Positions 6,441 to 13,221 of a DNA stretch of 64,000 nucleotides are shown piece after piece (the stretch's first letter is position 1; each line of letters begins with the position of its first letter). The stretch spans positions 372,001 to 436,000 of the forward strand of contig JACRPF010000005.1 of assembly GCA_016214035.1 (NCBI GenBank), read 5' to 3'. A program made the translations under genes and the position numbers. This DNA comes from Spirochaetota bacterium (lineage in GTDB: Bacteria; Spirochaetota; Brachyspiria; Brachyspirales; JACRPF01). The notes under the pieces are model-generated. The model saw only the letters and a program-made list of their open reading frames with translations. It made no database searches and was not told where the DNA came from.

Positions 6441-6472
6441 AAAAAGAGGATGCCTTTCGGCATCCTCTTTTT
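6441..6472. terminator. Bidirectional intrinsic terminator
   Basis: A 14-bp perfect stem (AAAAAGAGGATGCC / GGCATCCTCTTTTT) closes a TTTC loop. The A-tract on one side and T-tract on the other give a U-run in both directions. It sits between the convergent sulfatase (ends 6414) and flaB (ends 6495) and would terminate both. Confidence 0.93.
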
Positions 6473-6494: not shown

Positions 6495-7367
6495 CTACTG
6501 GAGCAGTCTGAGCACGTTCTGCGAGAGCGTGTTCGCCTGCGCGAGCATAGCGGTGTTCGCCTGATTCAGGATCTGGTTACGCGTGAAGTCGGCCATTATT
6601 TCGGCCATATCAGTGTCGCGTATGCGGCTTTCCGCAGCCTGCAGGTTCTCATACCCGATCATCAAGCCCTGCGCGGTGAACTCAAGGCGGTTCTGATACG
6701 CCCCGAGGTCTGCGCGCTGCTTCAACACTTTTTTCAACGCTTCATCCACCATGCCGATTACCATATTGGATTTCTGCGGGGTTGACACGCTGATGAACGT
6801 TGCCGTCTCGGCATTGTTCGTCGTGTTCTTGAGGCCTAAGCCCTGCGAATTCATCGTTCCGATGTACACGCGCACACGCTGCTCCATGTTCGCTCCGATG
6901 TGGAGCCACATAGACGCGGTGGGGGTGTTCTGGCCGGTGAATACCGCAAAACGGCCCGTGAGCATGTTCATCTTGTTGAACTCGGCGTGTGAAGCGACCC
7001 GGTCGAGTTCATCGACGAGCTGCGACACTTCCACCTGTATCTGCATGCGATCTTCATCGCTGTAGATACCGTTTGCCGACTGCACCGCAAGTTCACGGAT
7101 ACGGTTGAGCACTCCGGATATCGTATCGAGATATCCTTCAGTGGTCTGGATGAACGAGATACCGTCTTCGGTGTTCCGTTCAGCCTGCCTGAGTCCGCGG
7201 ATCTGCGAGCGCATCTTTTCAGATACGGCGAGTCCCGATGAGTCGTCCCCCGCACGATTGATCCGTTGGCCCGAGGAGAGTTTCTCCACGTCCTTCTGAA
7301 GATCGACCTGGCGGAATTTGAGCGAGCGATTAGCATTAATCGCGCTCATGTTGTGGTTGATGATCAT
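6495..7367 (-). CDS. flaB: Flagellin FlaB, periplasmic flagellar filament core protein
   Basis: 290 residues, the typical spirochaete FlaB length. The N-terminus MIINHNMSA and the motifs [27 protein letters not shown] and [10 protein letters not shown] are the conserved D0/D1 helices. The C-terminus ([18 protein letters not shown], ending NVLRLLQ) is the matching coiled D0 helix. The short middle, without a large D2/D3 domain, fits filaments housed in the periplasm. The start is placed at 7367, behind AAGGAGG with 5-nt spacing, not at an in-frame ATG six codons upstream. It is monocistronic, ending at a bidirectional terminator. The leader carries two CsrA consensus sites and a sigma-28-like upstream element, described separately. 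Confidence 0.97.
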
Positions 7368-7371
7368 AGCA

Positions 7372-7414
7372 TCCTCCTTGATCATGCATTCACGTTTTCA
7401 TCCATGAAAACGTG
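7372..7414 (-). promoter_or_regulatory. flaB leader: two consensus CsrA-binding sites
   Basis: Site 1 is a perfect 11-bp inverted repeat (7391-7414, CACGTTTTCAT / ATGAAAACGTG). On the flaB mRNA its apex reads UCAUGGAUGA (7407-7398), so GGA is exposed in the loop of an 8-bp stem. Site 2 reads UCAAGGAGGA (7381-7372) and coincides with the Shine-Dalgarno. Both fit the published CsrA/RsmE consensus A/U-CA-N-GGA-N-G-U/A at every fixed position. The GGA cores are 26 nt apart, a spacing that one CsrA dimer can bridge. The arrangement matches the known flagellin leader of Bacillus subtilis hag; CsrA is also a reported repressor of Borrelia flaB. Confidence 0.65.
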
Positions 7415-8845: not shown

Positions 8846-8887
8846 CCGCTTCGAAGGCGCGAATATATATTCGCGCCTTCGAAGCGG
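8846..8887. repeat. 42-bp perfect palindrome between btuB and the FecR/M14 gene
   Basis: Each 21-bp half begins CCGCTTCGAAGGCGCG and the two halves are exact reverse complements around an ATATAT centre. It starts 12 bp after the btuB stop codon. No T-run follows on either strand, so it is not a standard intrinsic terminator. In RNA it would be a very stable 3'-end or intercistronic hairpin. It shares the core CGAAGGCGC / GCGCCTTCG with another hairpin at 12363-12400. Confidence 0.85.
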
Positions 8888-12334: not shown

Positions 12335-13221
12335 TTTTTTCTCCTGTGATATTTTTTGGAATGGTCCGAAGGCGCTGTCACGTGACCGCGCCTTCGGACC
12401 GAGACTGATGCATGTTTTGATATTTCCGTATCCTGTATGCTGTCTCCCGATACGGCGAATACATAAGGTTTTTTCGACAGCGGGTTTTCCTTTACGATGA
12501 CGACGGTATCATACACCGCTTCCACAGTCTGATACGTGAGCACCTCTTCCGGGGTACCTTCCGCGTGTACTCGTCCATGCTTCATGAGCACGAGCATATC
12601 GCAGTATTCCGATGCGAGGTTCAGATCATGAATCGTCATTACAATGGTGAGCTTGAGCTCGCGTTTCAGCCGGCGGATGAGATCGAGCAGCCGTACCTGA
12701 TGCGTGATATCGAGATGCGACGTTGGCTCATCGAGGAGGAGGAGCGGCGTTTCCTGTGCCAGCGCCCGCGCGATATACGCAAGCTGACGTTCACCGCCGC
12801 TCATGGCGGAAAGAAGTTTGTCGGCGTGTACGTCGACGCCGGTAAGCTTCATGTAGCGTGATGCTATCTCATAATCGCGCGGTGATTCGAAGAACTGCAT
12901 GGGCGCGAAGTGCGGCATACGGCCGAGGAGGACGAAATCGCGCACGGTGATCATCTCGGCGGCGACATCCTGCGATACCACGGATACGGTGCGCGCGAGT
13001 GTTTTTGCATCCATTCGTGCAAGCTGTTTTCCGCCGATGGCGATAAAGCCTGTGCGTGCAGGCAGTACGCGACTTATAGCCCGAAGCAGCGTTGTCTTTC
13101 CCGAACCGTTGGGTCCGATGATGCCGATGATGCTTTCGCCCGGGAGCGCGGTGTTCAGCGAGACGGTAAAATCACCGTCATATCCTGCGGTAAGATTGTC
13201 AATCGTTACGAACGGTTTCAT
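12331..13221 (-). CDS. btuD: ABC transporter ATPase, vitamin B12 import
   Basis: 296 residues. Walker A GPNGSGKTT (about 37-45), Q-loop in VSVVSQD, signature MSGGERQLAYIARAL (about 141-155), Walker B LLLLDEPTSHLDI and a switch His in MTIHDLN. It powers the BtuC2D2 inner-membrane importer fed by BtuF. The ATPase core ends near residue 245; the last about 45 residues are an Arg/Lys/His-rich extension partly encoded by a near-perfect 38-bp palindrome (12363-12400), so the tail may be a late addition. Stop and start codons overlap the neighbours on both sides (ATGA), giving tight coupling with btuC and cobT. Confidence 0.93.
   Translation of the reverse strand: MKPFVTIDNLTAGYDGDFTVSLNTALPGESIIGIIGPNGSGKTTLLRAISRVLPARTGFIAIGGKQLARMDAKTLARTVSVVSQDVAAEMITVRDFVLLGRMPHFAPMQFFESPRDYEIASRYMKLTGVDVHADKLLSAMSGGERQLAYIARALAQETPLLLLDEPTSHLDITHQVRLLDLIRRLKRELKLTIVMTIHDLNLASEYCDMLVLMKHGRVHAEGTPEEVLTYQTVEAVYDTVVIVKENPLSKKPYVFAVSGDSIQDTEISKHASVSVRRRGHVTAPSDHSKKYHRRKK
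12363..12400. repeat. 38-bp near-perfect palindrome in the 3' end of btuD
   Basis: Outer arms GGTCCGAAGGCGC / GCGCCTTCGGACC (13 bp, perfect) enclose the palindrome GTCACGTGAC with only one unpaired position on each side. It lies in the btuD coding sequence, about 30 bp before the cobT start, and would place a strong hairpin just ahead of the coupled start. The CGAAGGCGC core also occurs in the palindrome at 8846-8887. Confidence 0.8.

Follow-up and report, generated by a model that had tools for sequence, protein, structure and literature searches.

CsrA forms a dimer that offers two faces to RNA, and it is best known for its broad regulons in Gammaproteobacteria. Flagellin leaders with two CsrA sites have already been published for Bacillus hag, Borrelia flaB, Clostridioides difficile fliC and Campylobacter flaA. 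The hag leader of B. subtilis carries one of its sites over the Shine-Dalgarno (PMC7652899) and has FliW as an antagonist, the two sites being BS1 (A51-A55) and BS2 (C75-G82) (PMC8523840). The flaA leader of Campylobacter jejuni contains two ANGGA sites, one in the upstream stem-loop SL1 and the other in SL2 on the ribosome-binding site; compensatory changes in SL1/SL2 are found among Campylobacter species, and when either GGA site is mutated, CsrA binds less well and FlaA increases 2-3 fold (PMC4894983). In C. difficile fliC, CBS1 and CBS2 lie at -45 to -34 and -20 to -9, with two predicted hairpins, but only the Shine-Dalgarno site is needed in a reporter, i.e. CsrA regulation stays intact when the upstream site is deleted (PMC11898703). 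The upstream hairpin may not have the same role in every system.

In spirochaetes, the flaB leader of Borrelia reportedly has two CsrA sites, one of them on the Shine-Dalgarno, as Sze et al. are said to have described in 2011, so the novelty that a sequence-only reading of the present locus saw in a dual layout in a spirochaete FlaB was overstated. That reading also cited a repression of Borrelia flaB by CsrA, which agrees with what is published for B. burgdorferi and its CsrA-Bb (PMC3757020, PMC8668096). A GGA hexaloop in Leptospira flaB3/flaB4 is bound by CsrA in gel shifts (PMC8668096), although here a single site is described, near the start codon; single CsrA sites are what has been published for the flaB genes of Leptospira and T. 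denticola (PMC8668096, PMC9481697). Overexpression of csrA raises the flaB mRNAs of L. interrogans (PMC8668096), so the direction in which CsrA acts on flaB may not be the same in all spirochaetes.

The flaB leader of the window

The window, i.e. the whole 64-kb stretch of DNA that was analysed, holds on its minus strand a coding sequence of 290 aa (6498..7367; start codon 7367-7365, stop 6497-6495). The product matches Pfam Flagellin_N (E 4.8e-42) and Flagellin_C (E 1.8e-24), which identifies the gene, flaB, as a flagellin. The start codon at 7367 is fixed by the alignment of the relatives, and the longer frame from an alternative in-frame ATG at 7385 shows no conservation in them. This other ATG (7383-7385) is situated 18 nt 5' of the conserved start, and the Shine-Dalgarno lies between both. 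A probable intrinsic terminator of flaB with a 14-bp stem, a GAAA loop and a U-rich tail is found at 6441..6472 on the minus strand. Two long palindromes without spacer are present elsewhere in the window, at 8846-8887 (21-nt arms, perfect) and 12363-12400 (19-nt arms, 95%), and have the core CGAAGGCGC in common.

The leader has the order CACGUUUUC-AUGGAU-GAAAACGUG-AAUGCAUGA-UCAAGGAGGA-UGCU-AUG. Its first part, CACGUUUUC-AUGGAU-GAAAACGUG (7391-7414, minus strand), is a hairpin with a 9-bp stem, a C-G closing pair and a GGA (7403-7401) in the hexaloop; RNA folding gives -22.6 kcal/mol, with z = -3.25. The CsrA-type site UCAUGGAUGA (7407-7398, minus strand) sits at the apex, and a second one, UCAAGGAGGA (7381-7372, minus strand; GGA core 7377-7375), covers the Shine-Dalgarno. 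Both match WCANGGANGW in full, their GGA cores are 26 nt apart, and the inverted repeat 7391-7401/7404-7414 is perfect, with 11-nt arms and 2 nt between them. The sequence-only reading had claimed two full-consensus sites at these coordinates, one presented by a hairpin and one on the Shine-Dalgarno, together with the core distance and the perfect repeat, and all of this was confirmed.

The locus shares its general plan with the systems described above, and there are a few differences. The B. subtilis group also presents the upstream GGA in a hairpin loop (L143), but it belongs to another phylum, its stem is different and its loop has 8 nt (AAAGGAAG), as opposed to the canonical hexaloop AUGGAU of the window. 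Borrelia has an A-U loop closure and a longer spacer, whereas the hairpin of the window is longer and closed by C-G. In C. jejuni flaA both sites are in stem-loops, while the Shine-Dalgarno site of the window forms a weak fold, whose pairs do not recur in the nearest relative. The geometry of C. difficile fliC is nearly equal to that of the window, even though the sequence is otherwise unrelated. Rfam gave no relevant match in the flaB leader of the window or in ten other flagellin loci from both phyla.

Could the two consensus matches and the inverted repeat have come together by chance? Single matches are certainly common, as WCANGGANGW occurs 15 times in the window against 6.4 expected, and one match on its own is ordinary. 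The combination is not: when both strands of 464 kb of this genome were scanned, the flaB leader was the sole place where a GGA hexaloop on a stem of 5 bp or more precedes CANGGAGG. The same conclusion was reached with R1, a covariance model that spans the hairpin, the spacer and the Shine-Dalgarno site and was made from 41 spirochaete leaders. Of the alignments, A2 was ungapped and A3, on which R1 is based, was made without family f1, so every member of the family to which the window belongs was left out of the training. Nevertheless, R1 finds the whole dual element of the window (7368..7414, minus strand, 31.1 bits), and in the whole 5.2-Mb genome it has just two good matches, both of them flagellin leaders (G000:C7, E 2.7e-5; window flaB, E 1.0e-3; next match E ~4.7; the E-values are rough, as calibration was short). 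Together with the covariation described below, this leaves a practically negligible probability for chance, which is refuted by the conservation tests. A third flagellin of the genome (L034, upstream of G000:C18:241656) has a variant with the GGA in a 5-nt loop, CCGGGU-GGGAU-ACCCGG.

Conservation and covariation of the element

About 60 spirochaete genomes supplied 130 flagellin leaders. Of these, 93 have a hairpin with a GGA hexaloop and 4 bp or more, as opposed to a mean of 5.0 and a maximum of 9 in dinucleotide-shuffled leaders; with 5 bp or more there were 71 (shuffled mean 1.8). No other trinucleotide at loop positions 3-5 exceeded 18 of the 130 leaders at 5 bp, and other loop registers were near background, except where these same stems were read in a nested way, with 4-nt or 8-nt loops. 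Most loops read ANGGAN, with C-G closure in 76/100. The upstream GGA lies mostly 31-41 nt 5' of the start codon and the GGA-to-GGA spacing is mostly 22-28 nt, a range that includes the 26 nt of the window.

When the choice of the GGA rested solely on how far it lies from the start codon, and not on the stem, the flanks paired in 80% over seven positions, as compared to 46% (maximum 53%) with re-dealt partners. In 73 sequences with the GGA picked by position, stem pairing was 73.5% against 45.0 +/- 1.6% in shuffled ones. The covariation in this set was 0.721, a value that the shuffled sequences (0.208 +/- 0.018) reached in 0/500 shuffles and that slid controls (at most 0.283) did not approach, and two-sided changes are present at all nine stem positions. 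The search for compensatory stem changes in related genomes that had been proposed along with the first reading thus turned out in its favour: stem and GGA positions are kept. In the orthologue of the closest relative (L004, sister genus) the loop is 8 nt long, AACGGAAG, and lacks the full consensus.

These data also bear on the idea that a transcription factor uses the palindrome as its operator on the DNA, the central GGA being incidental. A perfect 24-bp inverted repeat 5' of a highly regulated gene would suit such a role, and no match to a sigma-70 promoter pattern was found near the flaB leader; a strict sigma-28 pattern is absent in the window and precedes just 13/130 of the flagellin leaders. 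However, the stem arms are wholly different between relatives with the pairing, G-U pairs included, kept, which a protein that reads a fixed DNA sequence would forbid. Moreover, the centre is fixed as GGA when read in the sense of the mRNA, and the start codon follows at a narrowly constrained distance. We therefore regard an operator as extremely unlikely.

It is somewhat less far-fetched, but still very improbable, that the hairpin is a mere stabiliser of the 5' end of the mRNA and CANGGAGG a plain strong Shine-Dalgarno. An mRNA can be protected by a hairpin at its 5' end, and a strong Shine-Dalgarno would befit a protein as abundant as flagellin. This explanation has no place for the invariant ANGGAN register, for the preference for C-G closure, or for the CA before the Shine-Dalgarno GGA. 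The latter, i.e. CANGGAGG, is present in 111/119 flagellin leaders with GGAGG but CA is found in just 3/31 GGAGG-ATG ORFs in sampled sequence of this genome, where random genome sequence was taken as the background, a flagellar-locus background being biased. The presence of csrA and fliW in the genome (see below) speaks against a mere stabiliser as well, and CsrA binding sites remain the preferred reading of both GGA motifs.

The same layout is found in Bacillota, as the first reading had supposed from its likeness to Bacillus hag, and the reading of a dual CsrA site shared with hag is well supported. Among the hag loci gathered with the B. subtilis Hag sequence as query, 56/77 leaders have the hairpin with a GGA hexaloop and 4 bp or more (against a mean of 1.9 and a maximum of 5 after shuffling) and 72/77 have CANGGA close to the start codon. 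R1, trained on spirochaetes only, matches most of these loci in the final 50-odd bases before hag. Its best match was directly 5' of a flagellin in 10/10 whole Bacillota genomes, and in a set of 120 whole genomes drawn from one Bacillota phylum, 57/63 matches end 8-17 nt before a Flagellin_N match, while none was found in the 20 genomes of the set that have no flagellin. In Borrelia-like genomes R1 is weak (~16-17 bits), but the same hairpin can be seen by eye, as in AGACAA-AUGGAU-UUGUCU and GGCAA-AAGGAU-UUGCC.

Trans factors and the proposed circuit

A search for csrA and fliW had been suggested as a check, and both genes were found intact and in a single copy each, adjoining each other on a contig (G000:C11) other than that of the window. 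The csrA gene encodes 98 aa (PF02599, E 9e-24) and keeps L4 and R44, which we take to be the RNA-contact residues; fliW encodes 145 aa (PF02623, E 1e-36). The long C-terminal tail of this CsrA is of the type bound by FliW in other bacteria (PMC7652899). Among the genomes of the relatives, csrA matches are present in 59/61 and flagellins in 61/61. Eleven genomes without a csrA match were checked for flagellin; 8 of them have none and are therefore uninformative on the hairpin, and in the other three, all drafts (G169, G089 and G144), flagellins and hairpin matches are present. Perhaps these three have assembly gaps, or perhaps their hairpins have outlived csrA.

The flaB leader is very probably the cis half of a CsrA-FliW-flagellin feedback circuit, a circuit that has been published for B. 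subtilis (PMC7652899) and C. jejuni (PMC4894983). By analogy with these and other relatives that have been studied, CsrA binding and repression, as well as the switch by FliW, would operate in this organism as follows. One face of the CsrA dimer would dock on the GGA in the hexaloop and the other on the Shine-Dalgarno GGA 26 nt downstream, and the docked protein would keep the 30S subunit from initiating flaB translation. FliW, encoded beside csrA, would strip CsrA off the leader, and unexported FlaB would titrate FliW, so that flagellin would be synthesized only during export.

Age of the element and other genes that carry it

What is new and useful here is a covarying element that extends across Spirochaetota and Bacillota and has no Rfam family. 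Our literature search found no report of a cross-phylum covariation of flagellin leaders, or of the element as one covarying structure. We consider it an even question whether hairpin and Shine-Dalgarno form one ancient, uncatalogued cis-regulatory RNA family that predates the Spirochaetota/Bacillota split, in which the stems turn over freely and nothing is invariant but the ANGGAN hexaloop, its distance from the start codon, and CANGGAGG. The first reading had proposed that the ancestral circuit is shared between phyla; the layout is indeed present in both, but the element need not be of shared ancestry, because stems turn over completely even within family f1.

The alternative is that the dual element is functional but arose anew several times, with CsrA as the selecting agent, and was not inherited from a common ancestor of Spirochaetota and Bacillota. 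We find this quite conceivable, with a probability that falls a little below even. The two members of family f1 (L003 and L004) have unrelated stems, and since CsrA binds by preference to hairpins with GGA in a hexaloop (PMC8668096 quotes the consensus RUACARGGAUGU), convergence would be easy. On the other hand, position, spacing and order are identical in both phyla, and a model trained on one phylum recognises the other.

If the ancient family is real, CsrA-FliW flagellin homeostasis could be read from genome sequence alone, and the covariance model provides a direct test for the circuit in any flagellated genome. Matches to the full element are confined to flagellin leaders in the genome of the window and almost confined to them in the relatives and in Bacillota. 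This fits the view that flagellin control is an old and central job of CsrA outside Gammaproteobacteria.

In the 61 genomes of the relatives nearly all R1 matches end directly 5' of a flagellin. Among the few exceptions, five turned out to belong to additional flagellin genes, while one precedes FlaG and two precede FlgN, and the model suggests flaG and a flgN-led operon ending in csrA as further targets in some spirochaetes. In the former case (L227, G059:C1:1746358-1746402) the element precedes a flaG gene directly downstream of a flagellin; flaG of C. jejuni is likewise affected by CsrA (PMC4894983). In the latter (L226, G054:C1:1340112-1340151, minus strand; L229, G043:C1:79765-79800, plus strand) the element precedes FlgN (PF05130), the first gene of an operon, and csrA lies ~4 kb downstream on the same strand, so CsrA may control its own flgN-led operon in this family. 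In addition, R1-type elements were observed in the same two genomes (L225, G054:C1:307854-307894; L230, G043:C2:35472-35513) before the gene of a conserved protein of 97 aa that has no match in Pfam, a possible candidate for a new CsrA target.
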